Part shown: piece by piece, positions 4,891 to 17,986 of the stretch | Layout of the letters: the number at the start of each line of letters is the position of its first letter | Numbering within the stretch: the stretch's first letter is position 1 | Source of the DNA: a virus | Strand: one strand, 5' to 3' | IMG/VR virus record: IMGVR_UViG_3300022929_000133 | Location: 1 to 29,618 of that record | Length of the DNA stretch: 29,618 nucleotides | Made by a program: the position numbers and the translations under genes | Notes under the pieces: generated by a model | Told to the model about the DNA's origin: nothing | The model's database searches: none | The model's input: the letters and a program-made list of their open reading frames with translations, nothing else

Positions 4891-5670
4891 TTAGGCTGAA
4901 GCAAACATGTTTGTAGTATGTTCTTTAGTAGCCTGATTAAGCTCAGTTGCAACTTTGACAGAAGAATCAGCGTGATTCTTGAAGTTCCACTCAGCTAGTC
5001 GCTGTTGACGTCTTTCGATCTCATTTCTGACACGAACATCTTTTAAAGACAGATCGTGCAATCCGAATGATTCACCGATGAGGCCAACAACAGCTGACAA
5101 CATACGAGCTTTGCGACCGAGACCGAACATCTTCTCCTCACGCTCAACCAACCATACTGGTAAGTCATCGTTTGGATTAGCTGATTCAGTTTCTTCTTTG
5201 TACTCGTACGCAATGGACGCGAACTCTGCCCAAGTCCTGGTTGTCAACTGTAAGAAGTTGATACCTGTTGATTGTGGGTCAGTCTCAAGCAATGGCATAA
5301 GACCGTCTGCAATCTGTTGGACTTGTTGAAGATAATAATCTTCTTCTTTTTTACGAAGCTCGTCGTCTGTTTGGTTAAATACCATTGGTGTATTCTTTTT
5401 AGACTTGAATACTTCCATGATACCTTCTACTCTTGATGGCTGAGCAATAGCTTTGCCTTCGCCATCAATAGCATACTTTCTGTAGTAAAAGTCAGGCAGA
5501 TGCACAGGGTCTTGTGTTGCTCTGGCTTCACTACCAACTGGGTCACCGTTGGTGTCTGGTTTCCACGCAGACTCTGGTGTTTTTTGGTCAGGCAAGAGTT
5601 CGCCTGTTTCACCGTTTGCCATGTCTACGATTTCTGGACCTAGGTCCGATGGGTCAAAATGATTCGCCAT
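4891..5670 (-). CDS. Hypothetical phage protein, 259 aa
   Basis: A 259-residue soluble, acidic protein. The open frame reaches 5727, but AAGGAGG with 5-base spacing before the ATG at 5670 (MANHFDPSDLG) decides the start. That start lies inside the end of the 52-residue gene (17-base overlap). The N-terminal 80 residues are Pro/Asp-rich and probably flexible; the middle (about 100-230) is helical and charged, with KKEEDYYLQQVQQIADGL and a conserved-looking GRKARMLSAVVGLIGESFGL stretch. No enzyme motif was found. A strong intrinsic terminator follows its stop, so it closes this transcription unit. It could be a replication or recombination accessory protein, but nothing in the sequence shows that. 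Confidence 0.85.
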   Translation of the reverse strand: MANHFDPSDLGPEIVDMANGETGELLPDQKTPESAWKPDTNGDPVGSEARATQDPVHLPDFYYRKYAIDGEGKAIAQPSRVEGIMEVFKSKKNTPMVFNQTDDELRKKEEDYYLQQVQQIADGLMPLLETDPQSTGINFLQLTTRTWAEFASIAYEYKEETESANPNDDLPVWLVEREEKMFGLGRKARMLSAVVGLIGESFGLHDLSLKDVRVRNEIERRQQRLAEWNFKNHADSSVKVATELNQATKEHTTNMFASA

Positions 5671-6047: not shown

Positions 6048-6263
6048 TTAAGCTACTGCTTGAGCTGGCTGTTCAACAGACTGAGCTTTTGGCTCAATCT
6101 GTCTTTTGAAGACTTTCACTTGGTTGCCGTCACTGTCCAATGGAACAGCTACGTCAAAGTGTAGAGTCTCACTACCATCTTTGTTGGTAGTTGCAATTCC
6201 GATTTCTCTACTTCTAGATTTACCGTCTTTGCCTGCTTTTAAAATGTATAATGAATACAACAT
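6048..6263 (-). CDS. Small hypothetical protein, 71 aa
   Basis: A 71-residue protein with an excellent start: TAGGAGG then TAATT before the ATG at 6263. The sequence begins MLYSLYILKAGKDGKSRSRE and looks like a small beta-rich domain (alternating hydrophobic strands, GIATTNKDGSETLHFDVAVPLD), ending in a Gln/Ala/Pro-rich flexible tail (EPKAQSVEQPAQAVA). No signal peptide or catalytic motif is seen. Upstream is hairpin repeat copy 1 (6330-6361) and downstream is the five-hairpin region. A small DNA- or RNA-binding role would fit the fold type but is a guess. Confidence 0.75.
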   Translation of the reverse strand: MLYSLYILKAGKDGKSRSREIGIATTNKDGSETLHFDVAVPLDSDGNQVKVFKRQIEPKAQSVEQPAQAVA

Positions 6264-6329
6264 AATTACCTCCTAGGTAAGTAAAATTAAGTGGCTCGAT
6301 ACACCCGTATCAAACTCACACATACACCA

Positions 6330-6361
6330 GCAACGCCACCAAGCGTAGCGACTGGCGATAG
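6330..6361 (-). repeat. Hairpin repeat, copy 1
   Basis: Thirty-one bases (6331-6361) are identical to 6629-6659. The unit carries the inverted arms CGCCA (6334-6338) and TGGCG (6353-6357). It begins 3 bases beyond the stop of the gene at 6364 and lies about 70 bases before the start at 6263. Similarity continues weakly toward that start (ACTCAC and TAC words are shared with copy 2). Confidence 0.85.
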
Positions 6362-6363
6362 AT

Positions 6364-6594
6364 TTAAACTTCTAATATGCGTTGAAGTTGCTCGTAATTT
6401 ACAAGACCTCTTGCTATTAGTAAGTCAATAACATCTGCTCTATGAATCTCCATCATGGTTAAGTTTTCAAAACCATACTCTTCATAGTTGTTTCTTAATA
6501 TATTAGTGCGTAACTCTTTCTCGTACCCAAGAAGCATAGTATCTGGATATTCGTTAGGGTTTGCTGATGGTGTTTTATCGTAAGTAAAAGTCAT
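6364..6594 (-). CDS. Small hypothetical protein, 76 aa
   Basis: A 76-residue acidic protein (MTFTYDKTPSANPNEYPDTML...). The open frame extends to a GTG at 6621, but GGAG with 6-base spacing favours the ATG at 6594. The C-terminal half (LTMMEIHRADVIDLLIARGLVNYEQLQRILEV) is helical and resembles a small protein-interaction helix bundle, with no specific family recognised. It lies between copies 1 and 2 of the hairpin repeat, so each side of the gene has the same element. Whether that element is its promoter, an RNA processing site or a protein-binding site is not shown. Confidence 0.7.
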   Translation of the reverse strand: MTFTYDKTPSANPNEYPDTMLLGYEKELRTNILRNNYEEYGFENLTMMEIHRADVIDLLIARGLVNYEQLQRILEV

Positions 6595-6627
6595 AATAGT
6601 CTCCATAATTAATATACTCACCTACCG

Positions 6628-6659
6628 ACAACGCCACCAAGCGTAGCGACTGGCGATAG
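6628..6659 (-). repeat. Hairpin repeat, copy 2
   Basis: Identical over 31 bases (6629-6659) to copy 1. Arms are CGCCA at 6632-6636 and TGGCG at 6651-6655. It sits 34 bases upstream of the start at 6594 and directly beside the first GGTTCCAC repeats. Confidence 0.85.
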
Positions 6660-6665
6660 GTTTAT

Positions 6666-6951
6666 GGTTCCACTGGTTCCACTTGGTTCCACGAGTCATG
6701 GAACACAAAAAACCTGATAACGATGCGTAGTTAGAGGTTTGGTTCCACTGGTTCCACTTGTTTTAGGTTAAGTTAATCTTTATTCATTAACCGTTGTCCG
6801 TGGTCCGTTACAAAACCTAGTTTTGTTTTACGTGGAACAACGGAACCACAAGTGTTGCAGTTGCACGCAAACCAGCATTGCTATGCATGTTTGTCATGGT
6901 TCCACGACTTGGTTCCACATCTGCACATTCCCGTGGAACACAAGGAACCAC
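6666..6951. repeat. GGTTCCAC array in gene-free DNA (half-parS-like; origin or partition-site candidate)
   Basis: The gene-free stretch 6595-7034 holds seven exact GGTTCCAC words on the plus strand at 6666, 6675, 6685, 6741, 6750, 6898 and 6911. Inverted GTGGAAC words are at 6832 and 6933, with related GGAACCAC at 6842 and 6944. Spacing inside clusters is 9-13 bases, about one helical turn. GTTCCAC is the known half-site of ParB-binding parS in some gammaproteobacteria (from memory, Pseudomonas), and a complete palindrome of this type occurs at 17607. Iteron origins and operator arrays also look like this. A plus-strand ORF at 6852-7055 crosses the array but has no ribosome site and was not accepted. 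Confidence 0.75.
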
Positions 6952-7011
6952 AAATGCGTGGCGATGCACAAGCACGCACGCATGATGATAGTAGTCAAAT
7001 GATAGTAGATA

Positions 7012-7030
7012 AGGGGGTGGTTAGCCCCCT
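7012..7030 (-). terminator. Probable terminator hairpin after the gene at 7035
   Basis: AGGGGG (7012-7017) pairs with CCCCCT (7025-7030) around a 7-base loop, starting 5 bases beyond the stop of the 81-residue gene. On the minus strand it is followed by TATCT rather than a full T-run, so it is a weaker terminator than the one at 4861. It would separate the 7540-7035 genes from the gene-free array. Confidence 0.6.
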
Positions 7031-7034
7031 GTGG

Positions 7035-7280
7035 TTAGATTTTAGACCAGAATAAGTAAGATGCCATTGAGTTCATGGCGAAGATAAAGATTAGAGTTGG
7101 GATAGTCCATGTGAATAGACCAATGATAACGCCTATGCCTATGAAGACAATAAGGTAAGGTTGATAGTCAGTGATTAAACTTGCGTCCTCGTTAGCTGAG
7201 AAGTTTTCGTAGGTGAATGCTACAAGTAACACCCACCCCACGATTGCTAGAGAACATAGTATCGATGATAGTATGCTCAT
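7035..7280 (-). CDS. Small membrane protein, 81 aa
   Basis: An 81-residue very hydrophobic protein with about three membrane segments: residues about 4-22 (LSSILCSLAIVGWVLLVAF), 41-57 (PYLIVFIGIGVIIGLFT) and 58-77. An acidic loop (ENFSANEDASL) separates the first two. The ATG at 7280 overlaps the stop of the preceding gene by 4 bases (ATGA), so the pair is coupled. No family is recognised; a membrane-active early protein or a superinfection-exclusion-type role would be plausible for a phage gene of this kind but is unsupported. Confidence 0.75.
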   Translation of the reverse strand: MSILSSILCSLAIVGWVLLVAFTYENFSANEDASLITDYQPYLIVFIGIGVIIGLFTWTIPTLIFIFAMNSMASYLFWSKI

Positions 7281-7540
7281 ATATCCATCTCCGCTTGTAT
7301 TGGTTTACTATGAACCGGAGAACCTTCAGCGATTCTCTCCATACATTGATTCATAAGTTCTGTATCAGCTTGTAGTTGCTGTTTGAACTTATCATCTGAA
7401 GACTCAGCTTTAGCCATTTTGTATCCGTTAGTATAATCAGTCCATGCTTTACCTGGATTAGATAATACTTTACCAATAGCGTGCTGTGTTTTAAATGTAT
7501 AACGACCTAGGTTATACGATACTTTATATAATTTACTCAT
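7277..7540 (-). CDS. Small basic hypothetical protein, 87 aa
   Basis: An 87-residue soluble protein and the first gene of the minus-strand arm. The ATG at 7540 is preceded by TGGAGG with 6-base spacing. The N-terminal half is basic and aromatic (MSKLYKVSYNLGRYTFKTQH); the C-terminal half is helical and acidic (SSDDKFKQQLQADTELMNQCMERIAEG). It overlaps the following membrane protein by 4 bases. No family is recognised. Being first after the divergent junction, it is likely among the earliest transcribed genes of this arm, by position only. Confidence 0.75.
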   Translation of the reverse strand: MSKLYKVSYNLGRYTFKTQHAIGKVLSNPGKAWTDYTNGYKMAKAESSDDKFKQQLQADTELMNQCMERIAEGSPVHSKPIQAEMDI

Positions 7541-7710
7541 GATGTACCTCCATGTACTTAAGAGTTAATAACACAAACATACTAACAACGTCACAAAGCG
7601 ATAGCGACTGACGACAAAAAACCAAAACAAGGTTCCAAAGGTCAAAAGTCAAAGTGCGATGTACGATGTCAAAAGGGTCGGGGATGGGTGTCTGGTGATA
7701 GAAGGAGAAG
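7541..7710. other. Divergent intergenic region between the two arms
   Basis: This 170-base stretch separates the minus-strand genes from the plus-strand packaging genes and should hold promoters for both. It contains hairpin repeat copy 3, a near-match to the array word (GGTTCCAA at 7631-7638), and TTGAC-like words on the minus strand. I found no convincing paired -35/-10 sequence in either direction. Confidence 0.5.
7585..7616 (-). repeat. Hairpin repeat, diverged copy 3
   Basis: Related to the copies at 6330 and 6628 but changed at several bases. The arms are CGTCA (7589-7593) and TGACG (7609-7613), so the central pair of the stem changed on both sides (C-G to T-A) and pairing is kept. It lies 45 bases upstream of the start at 7540, the same type of position as copy 2. 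Confidence 0.7.
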
Positions 7711-7803
7711 ATGTCTGAGCGATATATTATAAAATTTTCAAAAAAAATTTTTCCACAAAAAATTTACAAGTTATCCACAAATAAGCTATGCTTACGAATA
7801 TGA
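7711..7803 (+). CDS. Possible leader peptide ORF, 30 aa, overlapping terS
   Basis: ATG at 7711 follows GAAGGAGAAG (good Shine-Dalgarno but short spacing). It encodes 30 residues (MSERYIIKFSKKIF...) ending in TGA at 7801-7803. That stop overlaps the ATG at 7800 in the small terminase gene by four bases (ATGA), the usual layout for translational coupling, and the terminase start has no ribosome site of its own. The tract is very A+T-rich and includes a DnaA-box sequence, so the ORF may be incidental. Confidence 0.4.
   Translation: MSERYIIKFSKKIFPQKIYKLSTNKLCLRI
7749..7779 (+). promoter_or_regulatory. DnaA-box-like sites in A+T-rich tract
   Basis: TTATCCACA (7771-7779) is an exact copy of the strong E. 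coli-type DnaA box, and TTTTCCACA (7749-7757) differs from it by one base. Both point the same way, and the flanking 7721-7770 is almost pure A/T, like an unwinding element. This could be a host-DnaA-dependent origin or a regulatory site, but only two boxes are present. Confidence 0.4.
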
Positions 7804-8321
7804 GCTTAGCTACAGATCAATCGACCACGGTCACCGAACAAGATAGATTGGAACTCCAATCACATTTTCCGTACGCGGGTGTAAAGTTATCCGAGCTCTC
7901 GGTCCAAGAAGAAAGATTAATTTTGTATTTTTTACGTGGCATGAGCAAAGCGGCAGCGGGCCGTGCAGCAGGGTACCGGAACCAAGATTCCGTGTACGAA
8001 GCTTTTAAGCGACCAAAGATTATGCAGGCTATAGAGTATCTAAGAGAAGAGATGCGTGAAGAGGTTAAGTTCGATAAAAATACCGCGACCCAATTATATT
8101 TAGAAGCACATCGTAAATCAGCAACCGCGACTGAAGAGAAAAATGTCGTAGATTCGTTGTGCAAGCTCCACGGTCTATTTGCCCCAGAGCAAGCAACCCA
8201 GGTTAATATTAATTTAGATAAAATTCAGCAACTAGAAAGACTGCCCGATTCTGAGCTGTTAAAGTTAGCTGGAGTAGATACAAAGTATCTAGAACCCCAA
8301 GGAGAAAATAATGGCGAGTAA
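7800..8321 (+). CDS. terS: Terminase small subunit
   Basis: The protein has 173 residues from the ATG at 7800 (177 from 7788). The later start is preferred because it overlaps the leader ORF stop as ATGA; neither start has a clear ribosome site. Residues about 36-82 form a helix-turn-helix domain (EERLILYFLRGMSKAAAGRAAGY...) typical of small terminases that recognise the packaging site. The middle is helical (oligomerisation), and the tail after about 136 (INLDKIQQLERLPDSELLKLAG) is the segment that usually contacts the large subunit. The large terminase gene lies 1.3 kb downstream, separated by seven tiny basic ORFs, which is an unusual interruption. Confidence 0.85.
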   Translation: MSLATDQSTTVTEQDRLELQSHFPYAGVKLSELSVQEERLILYFLRGMSKAAAGRAAGYRNQDSVYEAFKRPKIMQAIEYLREEMREEVKFDKNTATQLYLEAHRKSATATEEKNVVDSLCKLHGLFAPEQATQVNINLDKIQQLERLPDSELLKLAGVDTKYLEPQGENNGE

Positions 8322-8466
8322 ATATCAGCAACAAGCGAAGGCTACAAAAAAGAAAAGAAAAGTTTCAAAAATGAAAAAATTTCCAGATTATTCTGGAGAT
8401 GGTAAGGTAACAAAGAAAGACATTCTCATGGGTAGAGGAGTCATTCCAAAAAAGAGAGGTAAATAA
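8311..8466 (+). CDS. Small basic protein with EF-hand-like loop, 51 aa
   Basis: ATG at 8311 follows GGAGAAAATA and overlaps the end of the small terminase gene by 11 bases. The product is 51 residues. A Lys-rich N-terminus (KATKKKRKVSKMKK) precedes DYSGDGKVTKKD (residues 26-37), which matches the 12-residue EF-hand calcium-binding loop: D1, S3, D5, G6, V8 and D12. The end is ILMGRGVIPKKRGK. I remember similar short proteins (GDGK-TKKD-GRGVIPK) from marine phages, always without assigned function. Only one loop and little flanking helix are present, so true calcium binding is uncertain. It is the first of the seven basic ORFs between the terminase genes. Confidence 0.75.
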   Translation: MASKYQQQAKATKKKRKVSKMKKFPDYSGDGKVTKKDILMGRGVIPKKRGK

Positions 8467-8467
8467 T

Positions 8468-8650
8468 ATGGGTACACACAGTAAAAAGAAAACTACAAAA
8501 ATGGAAAATGGAGTAAAAACTACTTCCTATAGAAATATGCCAGAAAGTTATGGCTTTCATAAGGCTTCTAAAAAGAAAAAGAAAGCGCCCACGGCTTATA
8601 CTATGACATCAAAAGATATTGTAAATAAGTTTAAAAAGAAAACAGCTTAA
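8468..8650 (+). CDS. Small Lys-rich protein, 60 aa
   Basis: The ATG at 8468 lies one base after the previous stop. The 60 residues include two lysine clusters (SKKKTTK and SKKKKKAP) and end DIVNKFKKKTA. There is no membrane segment. The tyrosine/proline stretch in the middle (SYRNMPESYGFHK) is the only part that looks folded. It is strongly cationic, as are its neighbours, which suggests binding to DNA or to the acidic scaffold. No named family is recognised. The ribosome site is weak (AGAGAGGTAAATA), so translation is probably coupled to the upstream gene. Confidence 0.65.
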   Translation: MGTHSKKKTTKMENGVKTTSYRNMPESYGFHKASKKKKKAPTAYTMTSKDIVNKFKKKTA

Positions 8651-8657
8651 GGAGTAG

Positions 8658-8762
8658 ATGATGCATTGTATAAACGCACCGGTAAAAAAGATGTCTATGA
8701 AAAAGGGCAAAAAGAATAAAGGTTATTCAGGAGGAAAAAATGCCGGCAAAAAGAAAAAGTAG
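8658..8762 (+). CDS. Tiny Lys-rich ORF, 34 aa
   Basis: AAGGAGTAG lies directly before the tandem ATGs at 8658 and 8661. The product is 34 residues (MMHCINAPVKKMSMKKGKKN...GGKNAGKKKK), with 13 lysines. It overlaps the following ORF by 23 bases. It is too short for any family call. Its place in the run of basic ORFs and a usable ribosome site support it, but it could be non-coding. Confidence 0.5.
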   Translation: MMHCINAPVKKMSMKKGKKNKGYSGGKNAGKKKK

Positions 8763-8913
8763 TAAAAAGAAAAGCGGAGCTAAACCTACTAACCCTACCC
8801 TGTATGCAAGGGTAAAAGCAGAAGCTAAAAGAAAATTTAAAGTTTACCCATCAGCCTATGCCAACGGTTGGTTAGTAAGGACTTATAAAAAACGTGGCGG
8901 TGGGTATAGGTAA
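8740..8913 (+). CDS. Small basic protein with YPSAYANGWLV motif, 57 aa
   Basis: GGAGG with 5-base spacing precedes the ATG at 8740. The 57-residue product has a Lys/Ser-rich start (MPAKRKSSKKKSGAK) and then a compact core, YARVKAEAKRKFKVYPSAYANGWLVRTYKKRGGGY (about residues 22-56). I recognise the pattern VYPSAYANG-W-V--YK-RGG from short proteins in many aquatic phages and some large eukaryotic viruses, where function is unknown. The stop overlaps the next start (TAATG). A nucleic-acid-binding role is suggested by charge and the conserved aromatic core. Confidence 0.8.
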   Translation: MPAKRKSSKKKSGAKPTNPTLYARVKAEAKRKFKVYPSAYANGWLVRTYKKRGGGYR

Positions 8914-9233
8914 TGGCTAAGCCTACCGGTGGCCTAACCGCATGGTTTGGCAAAGGACCAAAAGGTGATTGGGTCGATATCGGTGCTCCTAAGAAAAAAG
9001 GTAAATACCAATCTTGCGGTAGGAAATCTGCAAAAGGTAAAAGTAAACGTAAATATCCAAAATGCGTTCCAAGATCAAAAGCTCGGACTATGACTGCAGC
9101 GCAAAAACGAAGCGCAGTTACAAGAAAAAGAGCAGCGGGTAATCCAGGCGGGAAGCCACGTAACGTAAAAACTATAGTTAGGAAGACAAAACCGACTACA
9201 AGAAGGAGGACCCGTGCCAAGAAAAAGAGATAA
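8913..9233 (+). CDS. Basic protein, DUF5872-like, 106 aa
   Basis: A 106-residue, very basic protein whose ATG overlaps the previous TAA by one base. The N-terminal part, GGLTAWFGKGPKGDWVDIGAP followed by KYQSCGRK and KYPKCVPRSKA (two cysteines), matches my memory of the DUF5872 family of viral proteins, which share WF-(x)n-WVDI and SCGR motifs. After about residue 60 it is almost wholly a Lys/Arg/Ala tail like a histone tail (ending RRRTRAKKKR). Cellular location and partner are unknown; binding to packaged DNA would fit the charge and the terminase context. No acidic stretch balances the charge. Confidence 0.8.
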   Translation: MAKPTGGLTAWFGKGPKGDWVDIGAPKKKGKYQSCGRKSAKGKSKRKYPKCVPRSKARTMTAAQKRSAVTRKRAAGNPGGKPRNVKTIVRKTKPTTRRRTRAKKKR

Positions 9234-9498
9234 TATGCCCAAAAGGAATAAAAAGAACTTTAGGCCAACAAAAAAAGGCGCTGGAATGACTAAAGCGGGT
9301 GTAGCAGCCTACAGAAGAAAGAACCCAGGGTCAAAATTAAAGACAGCAGTAACAGGAAAAGTTAAAAAAGGCTCAAAAGCAGCAAAAAGACGTAAGTCTT
9401 ACTGCGCAAGAAGCGCAGGACAGATGAAAAAGTTTCCAAAAGCAGCAAAAAATCCAAATTCAAGGCTAAGACAAGCTCGTAAAAGATGGAAATGTTAA
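9214..9498 (+). CDS. Basic protein, DUF6321-like, 94 aa
   Basis: The GTG at 9214 follows AAGGAGG by 4 bases, which supports this unusual start over the ATG at 9235, and the gene overlaps the previous one by 20 bases. The 94 residues hold GAGMTKAGVAAYRRKNPGS, KTAVTGKVKKGSKAAKRRKS, CARSAGQMKKF and NSRLRQARKRWKC blocks. I recognise these as the DUF6321-type viral protein, also of unknown function. The two cysteines (in SYCARS and the final C) recur in that family. The whole protein is cationic and probably binds nucleic acid. Confidence 0.82.
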   Translation: MPRKRDNMPKRNKKNFRPTKKGAGMTKAGVAAYRRKNPGSKLKTAVTGKVKKGSKAAKRRKSYCARSAGQMKKFPKAAKNPNSRLRQARKRWKC

Positions 9499-9513
9499 TA
9501 AAAGGAGAAGGAA

Positions 9514-9603
9514 ATGGGATACGCAGGTATGTACAAAAAATCGTCACCAAAAAAAACTAAAAAAGCTAAGAAAAAAACAGCAAAAAAGAGCAAGAAAAAG
9601 TAA
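9514..9603 (+). CDS. Tiny Lys-rich ORF, 29 aa
   Basis: AAAGGAGAAGGAA precedes the ATG at 9514, a good ribosome site. The product is only 29 residues: MGYAGMYKKSSPKK followed by a run of lysines with scattered Ala/Thr/Ser, 16 lysines in all. It stops exactly one base before the GTG of the large terminase gene. It may serve mainly to bring ribosomes to that GTG, which has no ribosome site of its own, or act as a polycation. Confidence 0.55.
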   Translation: MGYAGMYKKSSPKKTKKAKKKTAKKSKKK

Positions 9604-11247
9604 GTGACAGACATTGCAAAGATAGAATGCTATAAGTGCAAGAAACTTTTAGCAGATAATTTAGTCCTGCCTAAAGGACTATGTGTTTACTGCGCGGCCG
9701 ACGAAGCAGACGAACTACCACAGCCTCAAAAACAAGAAAAAATTTCACAAAAAGAACAAAACGCTCAAGTTAGAGCTGAACAAGAGTTGGCTAAACGTAT
9801 TTTATCTAGAAAACGTATGCTGCCTTTTGTAGAGAAGTTTAACCCAGACTACCAAGCAGGTTGGGTACACAAAGATATATGTAATAGGTTAGAAAAATTT
9901 AGCCAAGACGTCGCAGATGAGAAATCCCCAAGACTTATGCTGTTCATGCCCCCTCGTCATGGTAAATCTACCTTAGCAAGTATTGCTTTTCCTGCTTGGC
10001 ACCTCGGACGTAACCCCGGACATGAGTTTATTAGTTGTTCGTACTCTGGATCTTTAGCTATGAGTTTCTCAAGAAAAGTTAGACAGGTACTTAGAGAGCC
10101 AAATTATAAAAAAGTTTTTGAATCTACTAAATTAGACAAAGATTCTCAGTCAGTAGAATCTTGGCAAACAACCCAAGGCGGTGGTTATGTGGCAGCTGGT
10201 GTCGGAGGTGGTATCACCGGTAAAGGTGCGCACATATTATTGATCGATGATCCGGTAAAAAACAGAGAAGATGCGGAATCAGAAAATAACAGAGAAGCAA
10301 CCTGGGATTGGTACACTTCTACTGCCTATACTCGTTTGGCTCCAGGTGGTGGTATTTTAGTTATTTTAACAAGGTGGCATGATGACGATCTAGCGGGCCG
10401 TTTGCTAACGGCTAGTGAAAACGGTGCGGACGATTGGGAAGTAGTTAAGTATCCAGCAATTGCAGAAGAAGATGAAGAGTTTCGTGCAACAGGTGAGCCG
10501 CTGCATCCCGAACGGTACAGTGTAGAATCTTTAGAAAAAATACAAAAAGCCATAGGGCCTAGAGACTGGACTGCTTTGTATCAACAAAACCCAGTATCAG
10601 ATGAGGGTGATTATTTTACTAGGGACATGATTCAATATTATGACCCAGCTGATATAGACTATGATAAGATGCGTTATTATTGCGCATGGGATTTAGCTAT
10701 TGGGCAAAGAGATAGGAACGACTACTCTGTTGGCATAATGGTAGGTATCGATGAATACGATAATATGTTCGTGGTTGATTTGGTTCGTGGCAAGTACGAT
10801 GGTTTTGAACTTGTAGAAAAAATATTAGATTTCTACGAACAGTGGAGACCTGGTATAGTAGGGATAGAACGTGGACATATAGAAATGGCCATCGGCCCGT
10901 TCTTAGAAAAACGTGTGGCAGAGCGTAGATTACATTCTGCATATTTTAAAGATTTAAAAGTAGGGAGACGTGACAAAGAAGCAAGAGCTAGAGCTATTCA
11001 AGGTAGGATGCAACAGGGTAGAGTTTTTGTCCCTGAAGATGCAGTTTGGACTGGGCCTCTTGTGGCTGAACTTTTGCGTTTTCCTAACGGCGTACATGAT
11101 GACCAAGTTGATGCTTTGGCCTGGGTTGGTTTGATGATGACAGAGTATGCATCTTTTTATGAAACACCAGAGCATGTACCTTCGTGGAGAGATAGGTTAG
11201 AATTAATGGCAAAAGGGCCGAAAAAGAAATCGGCAATGAGTGCGTAA
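9604..11247 (+). CDS. terL: Terminase large subunit with N-terminal zinc-ribbon-like extension
   Basis: A 547-residue packaging motor and nuclease. The ATPase part has Walker A PPRHGKST (116-123) and Walker B ILLIDD (211-216). The RNase H-like nuclease has D363 in AWDLAIG, E422 in GIERG, and D499/D500/D503 in HDDQVDALAW. It cuts the concatemer and drives DNA into the prohead together with the portal and the small subunit. Residues 1-34 form an extra piece with paired cysteines C9-x2-C12 and C27-x2-C30, likely a zinc ribbon, then an acidic Gln/Glu-rich linker. The start is a GTG joined directly to the preceding stop; the cysteine motif right after it supports this start. Confidence 0.95.
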   Translation: MTDIAKIECYKCKKLLADNLVLPKGLCVYCAADEADELPQPQKQEKISQKEQNAQVRAEQELAKRILSRKRMLPFVEKFNPDYQAGWVHKDICNRLEKFSQDVADEKSPRLMLFMPPRHGKSTLASIAFPAWHLGRNPGHEFISCSYSGSLAMSFSRKVRQVLREPNYKKVFESTKLDKDSQSVESWQTTQGGGYVAAGVGGGITGKGAHILLIDDPVKNREDAESENNREATWDWYTSTAYTRLAPGGGILVILTRWHDDDLAGRLLTASENGADDWEVVKYPAIAEEDEEFRATGEPLHPERYSVESLEKIQKAIGPRDWTALYQQNPVSDEGDYFTRDMIQYYDPADIDYDKMRYYCAWDLAIGQRDRNDYSVGIMVGIDEYDNMFVVDLVRGKYDGFELVEKILDFYEQWRPGIVGIERGHIEMAIGPFLEKRVAERRLHSAYFKDLKVGRRDKEARARAIQGRMQQGRVFVPEDAVWTGPLVAELLRFPNGVHDDQVDALAWVGLMMTEYASFYETPEHVPSWRDRLELMAKGPKKKSAMSA

Positions 11248-16899: not shown

Positions 16900-17574
16900 G
16901 TGGCAGCCTATTCTTCTTTAGTTAAAGAAATTTTACCGTACGTGCCTTTATGCCCAGATCCTTTAGTGGAACAAAATATACGGTCTGCGACTATAGAGTT
17001 TTGCGAAAGGTCAAAAGCTTATGTATTAGACATGGATCCATTTAACACTATTTCTGGTGTTTACGAATATGATTTTGATCTTCCCGTAGCTACAGAGGTA
17101 CATCAAGTTTTATATATGACCCATGACGGAAACGACATGGATCCTATTAGCCCACGTAGTTTAGAATTAAACTACCCAGATTGGAGAAATAGAACAGGTA
17201 ATCCACATGTTTATCTACAAAAGTCGTCTAGTTTATTTTGGATTGTGCCTGTACCAAGCGGGTCAAAAGAAGTAATAGCCAGTGTTGCTTTAAAGCCAAC
17301 TCGAACAAGTAACAACATAGATACTACGGTTTCTAACCAGTACAGAGACGCTCTTATATACGGGACTTTGTATAGGTTACTGCGTATGCCAAATAGAGAA
17401 TGGACAGATATAGGAGCAGCGCAAGAGTATTTATATCAATTTAATTTAGAGATAAAACAAGCAGAACTTCGTGCAAGAGGCGGAGATCTAGGAGTAAAAC
17501 GAACAGTAAAATACAAAGGAATAGGTAAGCCAAGGAGGCGCTATGGAAGATACGGAAGGGAGATCGACTACTAA
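16900..17574 (+). CDS. Second connector / tail-tube-like protein, 224 aa
   Basis: GTG start at 16900, fixed by AAGGAGG with 5-base spacing. The 224-residue protein has an N-terminal helical half (SLVKEILPYVPLCPDPLVEQ, ATIEFCERSKAYV), a beta-rich core (GVYEYDFDLPVATEVHQVLY, YPDWRNRTGNPHVYL), and a C-terminal helix plus very basic tail (KYKGIGKPRRRYGRYGREID). It resembles the second connector or gp11-like tail tubular proteins of short-tailed phages by length, fold order and place. The basic tail could touch DNA leaving the portal. It overlaps the next gene by 32 bases in another frame. Confidence 0.75.
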   Translation: MAAYSSLVKEILPYVPLCPDPLVEQNIRSATIEFCERSKAYVLDMDPFNTISGVYEYDFDLPVATEVHQVLYMTHDGNDMDPISPRSLELNYPDWRNRTGNPHVYLQKSSSLFWIVPVPSGSKEVIASVALKPTRTSNNIDTTVSNQYRDALIYGTLYRLLRMPNREWTDIGAAQEYLYQFNLEIKQAELRARGGDLGVKRTVKYKGIGKPRRRYGRYGREIDY

Positions 17575-17986
17575 TGACTTTGTTGAGCCAGTGCTTACTG
17601 ACATACGTTCCACGTGGAACATTATCAAACCTGGTTTAGAAAGTATATTAGCAGACAACCCAAGTCTAACTTTTATTCCCGAAGATGTTTATAGTGATTG
17701 TGTAAATGAAAAAGCGTTTTTATTTACCTCACCAGTAGGGTTTTTGGTACTTACAATAGAAACAGATAGGTACACAAAAGACAAGACATTGTATATGTGG
17801 ATAGCGTATACTTATGAAAAGGGCGGAAGACATTGGCTAGCCCACCAAGACTGGATAAATGCGTTAGCAAAAGAGTCTGGTTGTAAGTACATAGAAGCGC
17901 AGTCTCATGTACCAGAGTTAGAACCTTATGCTATTGCACGAGGTTGGAATACAGACACGAGAGTGTATAGGAGAAAAGTTAAGTGA
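17543..17986 (+). CDS. GNAT-like protein, 147 aa (T7 gp13-type position)
   Basis: The ATG at 17543 has AGGAGG with 4-base spacing and lies inside the end of the preceding gene. The 147-residue product has a beta-strand pattern GFLVLTIETDRYTKDKTLYMWIA (about 72-94), a helix near HQDWINALAKESGCKYIEA, and a last block PYAIARGWNTDTRVYRRKV. This is like the GNAT acyltransferase fold, in which the ending GW-x(n)-V-Y-R strand is common. T7 gene 13 holds an equivalent virion-assembly place and has a similar fold. I do not see the usual acetyl-CoA loop, so catalytic activity is doubtful. The 14-base palindrome at 17607-17620 lies in this gene. Confidence 0.65.
   Translation: MEDTEGRSTTNDFVEPVLTDIRSTWNIIKPGLESILADNPSLTFIPEDVYSDCVNEKAFLFTSPVGFLVLTIETDRYTKDKTLYMWIAYTYEKGGRHWLAHQDWINALAKESGCKYIEAQSHVPELEPYAIARGWNTDTRVYRRKVK
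17607..17620. promoter_or_regulatory. parS-like perfect palindrome inside the GNAT-like gene
   Basis: GTTCCACGTGGAAC is a perfect 14-base palindrome made of the same GTTCCAC word that repeats at 6666-6918. It fits the core of bacterial chromosomal parS sites (TGTTNCACGTGAAACA family), and the C/G version is the one I remember from Pseudomonas. It encodes R-S-T-W-N in frame. Confidence 0.55.

Follow-up and report, generated by a model that had tools for sequence, protein, structure and literature searches.

Candidate replication origin of a marine phage group: two iteron sets on either side of an AT-rich gap

The stretch of DNA analysed here (the window) comprises an entire IMG/VR record of 29,618 bp, yet the phage genome from which this fragment comes measures about 56-64 kb; that genome has capsid, terminase and tail genes of its own. 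At positions 6666-6951 the window carries an array of short repeated words. Minus-strand ORFs flank the array on both sides (6364-6621 and 7035-7280), and it contains no convincing gene; the earlier note on this DNA had called the region gene-free. To its right are the genes for TerS (7788-8321, 0.8 kb from the array), TerL, portal and capsid, and to its left AAA and VWA-type (DUF2201) genes.

The array, a candidate replication origin, consists of 12 words with a GTTCC core (consensus TGGTTCCAC), which span 283 bp and are arranged in four blocks. Block A (6666-6705, plus strand) has three direct copies of GGTTCCAC (6666, 6675 and 6685; 9-10 bp apart) and an inverted core, GGAAC, at 6700-6704; block B (6741-6757, plus strand) has two direct copies of the same word (6741 and 6750), 9 bp apart. 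An AT-rich gap of 73-74 bp (6758-6830), the candidate melting site, separates them from block C (6832-6847, minus strand) with its two inverted words, GTGGAAC at 6832-6838 and GGAACC at 6842-6847. Block D (6898-6951) has two direct GGTTCCAC words (6898 and 6911) that face two inverted words (6933 and 6944). The GTTCC cores are thus found at 6667, 6676, 6686, 6742, 6751, 6899 and 6912 on the plus strand and at 6700, 6834, 6842, 6935 and 6944 on the minus strand, with a spacing of 8-14 bp inside the clusters, save for one step of 23 bp in block D. All words listed in the earlier note are at their positions (the seven GGTTCCAC copies, GTGGAAC at 6832 and 6933, GGAACCAC at 6842 and 6944); its total was short by one, because the inverted core of block A had been overlooked.

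The heptamer GTTCCAC occurs 14 times in the window (2.2 expected), a number that none of 100 shuffles reached. Nine of these copies are inside 290 bp, in the array, and the maximum in 400 Markov simulations was three; the rest of the window has five, with 1.8 expected. The observation of the earlier note is confirmed. On its right the array is adjoined by GATGATAGTAGT repeats (6984-7008, plus strand), which are conserved beside the arrays of relatives, including phages with the word TGTTCC (see below). A tandem element, GTCCGTGGTCCG, is present within the AT-rich gap (6796-6807), and relatives keep variants of GGTCCACGGTCCG or GGTCGACGGTC. Upstream of minus-strand genes there is a hairpin-forming repeat of 41 bp, AACGCCACCAAGCGTAGCGACTGGCGATAG, at 6326-6366, 6624-6664 and, as a partial third copy, 7588-7614; many relatives have a hairpin of other sequence left of the array. 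A comparison with Rfam matched no known RNA element.

Eighty relatives were fetched by their TerL, and 28 of them reach far enough upstream for the array to be judged. In 27 of the 28 there is an array, defined as 9 or more GTTCC cores in 300 bp, 2.3-4.4 kb upstream of TerL; the contig of the 28th begins inside the array. A pattern scan of viral contigs identified 103 arrays, versus none with a reversed-word control. When 52 non-redundant arrays are aligned, conservation is 95-100% in the words and about 40-60% in the spacers; for many of these arrays the collecting pattern itself demanded four of the 12 sites, and the eight free sites are about equally conserved. Information is highest in GTTCC (about 1.95 bits per position) and lower in the leading G (1.2), the next A (1.1) and C (0.9). 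At the CAC end of the word, the A is conserved to 81% and the C to 70%. Each array has 11-14 GTTCC cores, mostly 12, and between zero and 11 copies of GTTCCAC: the constant feature of the array is the GTTCC core, not the half-parS GTTCCAC.

In three sister phages (G035, G038 and G039), the block layout is identical and the word is TGTTCC; their primase-helicase is 67-70% identical. Pseudomonas phage R18 (Kochitakasuvirus) shares with the marine phages homologous TerL (42%), portal, capsid, primase-helicase (30%), polymerase and SNF2 helicase. At the matching locus R18 also has an AT-rich core, less stable than any other 50-bp stretch in the 25.5 kb examined, but the iteron word differs: TCGTAACA, TGTTACGA and TGTCACGA surround the AT-rich segment in both orientations. 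The Aeromonas phage phiA008 has neither a GGTTCC cluster nor a perfect parS.

The earlier note had offered three readings of the array: binding by the ParB of the host, binding by a ParB encoded elsewhere in the phage genome, or an iteron-type origin. Single GTTCCAC heptamers are in vivo targets of P. aeruginosa ParB, which also binds GTTTCAC (PMC10419367), so the resemblance to half-parS was a fair lead. Host ParB on the GTTCCAC words could position, condense or protect the phage genome, or could itself be titrated by them, and the word of the sister phages, TGTTCCAC, is an exact parS half-site; in nine of the 52 arrays the left side of block C even completes a perfect parS, and the family has further perfect parS sites. 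Yet it is the core with its leading G that is conserved while the CAC end drifts, GTTTCAC words are not enriched, and R18, whose host has this very parS, has an unrelated word at the array locus. The array of the window lacks the palindromic parS of 14-16 bp (the best match has two mismatches), and its words, although they contain GTTCCAC, are mostly not in the arrangement of the parS palindrome. Host ParB is weakened as the main reader of the array, a role that we now consider unlikely. With its locus and layout fixed and its word changing, the array suits a reader encoded by the phage better than a host protein that stays the same.

The second reading found no support when the proposed search was run: ParB_N, HTH_ParB and ParA gave no match above the cut-off in the records searched, and Pfam models found neither ParA nor ParB in 10 near-complete relatives. 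The one weak HTH_ParB match, in a single genome, is below the cut-off (E 0.006) and has a stop inside. As for a ParABS partition locus, parA and parB in cis are missing in the records searched, and a perfect parS is present in the window at 17607, outside the array. An attP of a tyrosine integrase with arm sites was likewise dropped, since no tyrosine integrase was found in 10 relatives and R18.

The missing half of the genome is supplied by the relative G003, which assembles as a circle of 60,932 bp with a 99-bp end repeat. It codes for a nuclease candidate, an SNF2 helicase, a PD-(D/E)XK nuclease, an 829-aa primase-helicase and a family A polymerase; two further, closely spaced genes at 46525-49804 (6525-9804 of the extracted locus L187) look FecR-like and CHASE2-like by eye. 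The cumulative minima of both GC skew (5648) and AT skew (5543) are inside the G003 array (5383-5660). The skew analysis that the earlier note had called for, run on this complete relative, is consistent with an origin, although gene orientation and coding bias cannot be cleanly told apart from it: gene direction flips at 6054/6303, 400-650 bp from the minima, which are slightly to the left. The segment between blocks B and C is 63-75 bp long and its AT content is 0.64, versus 0.48 in the rest of the array (51 arrays). In 47 of the 51, it is here that the array region is least stable over 50 bp; the window's own gap is at the 72nd percentile of its genome and hence not genome-extreme.

The nearby switch in gene direction also raises the possibility of transcription control, with a repressor or activator on the words that controls the two gene blocks diverging to the left and to the right. 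The array is near the divergence of these blocks and has hairpin elements to its left; however, it is placed between two genes of the same direction, off the divergence point itself, and there is no linked regulator gene. Twelve rigidly conserved sites with an AT-rich gap also exceed the usual needs of an operator, and we regard this explanation as very improbable.

The layout has a close parallel in mobile islands. The origins of SaPIs and of Gram-negative PICIs have two sets of short iterons that flank an AT-rich segment, are located directly 3' of the helicase gene, and are served by phage-type helicases or primase-helicases with a C-terminal DNA-binding domain (PMC6092414, PMC7581432); among known replicons, the two-set layout has been described as unique to phage-inducible islands (PMC6092414). 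The marine array also has two short iteron sets around an AT-rich segment and would act like an island-type origin, though it is not classed as one. It differs in its extra fourth block, in its distance of about 10 kb from the helicase gene (in G003) and in its carrier, an integrase-free phage with its own virion genes rather than an integrating satellite.

Of the three readings offered earlier, the iteron-type origin is the best supported, by layout, conservation, AT-rich gap and skew minimum. We infer, with a probability of roughly 0.7, that DNA replication starts at the array, with a melting site between two iteron sets as in the origins of phage-inducible islands, and that this origin is probably opened by the phage's own primase-helicase; the activity, the binder and all mechanistic steps given here are part of this inference. 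Against an origin are the 10 kb between array and helicase gene, unlike in island origins, and a TerS gene that is merely 0.8 kb away. Most likely the array is an iteron origin whose general type is known and whose setting is new; the marine phage group that carries it is widespread.

As an origin, the array would work as follows. A phage initiator would bind the GTTCC-core iterons, the likeliest candidate being a C-terminal, winged-helix-like domain of the primase-helicase. Blocks A and B on one side and block C on the other face each other over the AT-rich segment of about 74 bp; hexamers built on both sides could melt this segment and load the helicase, and block D may be an additional binding or bending element.

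All 12 genomes searched encode a DUF5906 primase-helicase. Its gene is outside the window; in G003 it is at 54016-56505 of the circle, on which the array begins at 5383. The helicase part matches the primase of phage NrS-1 (PDB 6K9C/6K9E, E 1e-33). Residues about 730-790 have a strand-helix-helix-strand-strand pattern that resembles a winged helix; the structure model of the helicase is of low quality (mean pLDDT 57), so this call rests on the pattern of sequence and secondary structure. Fixed differences between phages with GGTTCC and phages with TGTTCC are denser in this putative domain (5/60 versus 19/769, p = 0.024); they include T751K and Q754T, where the second helix is predicted to begin. 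With just one evolutionary split, the covariation of word and helicase is only suggestive. As an alternative binder, a conserved 259-aa neighbour (4894-5670) was considered and is unsupported, with no family match and an all-helical model.

The same pattern scan identified GGTTCC arrays in unrelated phages and prophages, among them freshwater and actinobacterial ones; a few matches in bacterial genomes (for example L195 and L199) resemble chance or other contexts. In the loci scanned (10 genes and L128), the array is at the 3' end of a gene for an AAA_25/RecA-like helicase. These arrays share with the marine array the hexamer, a spacing of about 10 bp and the presence of both direct and inverted copies, but are directly 3' of a helicase of another family, and the base that follows the hexamer is mostly C rather than A. 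No similarity is detectable between the marine helicase and the AAA_25 helicases. Loci with this arrangement are L100, L128, L140, L145, L162, L166, L174, L191 and L192; in L191 there is an adjacent second array with the word GTGTCC.

Repeats that adjoin terS are known for pac and cos sites, and the array could be a packaging site with TerS bound to the words, comparable to the terminases of lambda (cosB) and SPP1 (pac). Its location 0.8 kb upstream of TerS would suit this, as would the similar distance from TerL in relatives and the GGTTCC arrays that, by eye, are also near terminase genes in unrelated phages. The closest neighbour of the arrays in those phages, however, is the helicase gene; a skew minimum and word sets that face each other across an AT-rich gap are traits of origins, and the first half of the TerS HTH, MSKAAAGRAAGY, is unchanged while the word changes. 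Packaging is therefore, in our view, quite improbable as the function of the array.

As a replication origin, the array provides a concrete candidate for widespread uncultivated marine phages and for their cultured relatives KPP25 and R18, for which we found no description of the origin location in the literature; nor was any paper found on GGTTCC iterons, or on GTTCCACGTGGAAC, in phages. The layout of two iteron sets and an AT-rich segment would then probably extend to integrase-free phages, remote from the helicase gene.

Host ParB keeps a possible role for a reason different from that of the earlier note: a perfect parS that is outside the array and conserved at the DNA level. This 14-bp site of the window, GTTCCACGTGGAAC, which the earlier note does not mention, is at 17607-17620, within a virion-side ORF (17543-17986) and across the codons R-S-T-W-N; outside the array such a site is expected 0.00002 times under a second-order model. 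In 11 genomes (nine with gene identity down to 67%, and two fetched later) the site has no synonymous change. Elsewhere in the ORF, where the residue is conserved and the codon four- or six-fold degenerate, about two thirds of the codons have changed (unchanged are 8/27 four-fold, 3/14 six-fold and 16/31 two-fold codons), and the chance that all four degenerate parS codons stay fixed is estimated at about 0.007. Relatives that lack this site have unrelated codons at that place. The site at 17607-17620 is possibly a separate functional site.

Perfect parS sites are present in at most one copy per genome and in three unrelated places in different lineages: the virion-side (tail) gene, block C of the array and, in four of four KPP25-type Pseudomonas phages, the region between a scaffold-side gene and the major head gene. 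There the 16-bp host parS, TGTTCCACGTGGAACA, is directly before a terminator (R18 46919-46934, L190 16929-16944; 0.0006 expected in R18). Chance hardly explains three separate places of a single 14-mer. We regard the separate perfect sites, with their putative role, as a more surprising lead than the array. We hold it possible, if rather doubtful, that these apparently virulent phages carry host-type parS for the CTP-dependent ParB clamp to load and to help position, compact or protect their DNA; the half-parS-like array may hold further ParB or mimic its sites. If the parS sites work, lytic phages would tap the chromosome-segregation clamp of their host. No parS site within one mismatch is present in the long relatives G002, G006 and G008, and parS in array and tail gene together was seen in 0 of about 15 genomes, which is not significant. 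The counts among viral contigs, at least 120 stretches with parS versus 42 with the reversed word, do not establish a general enrichment.
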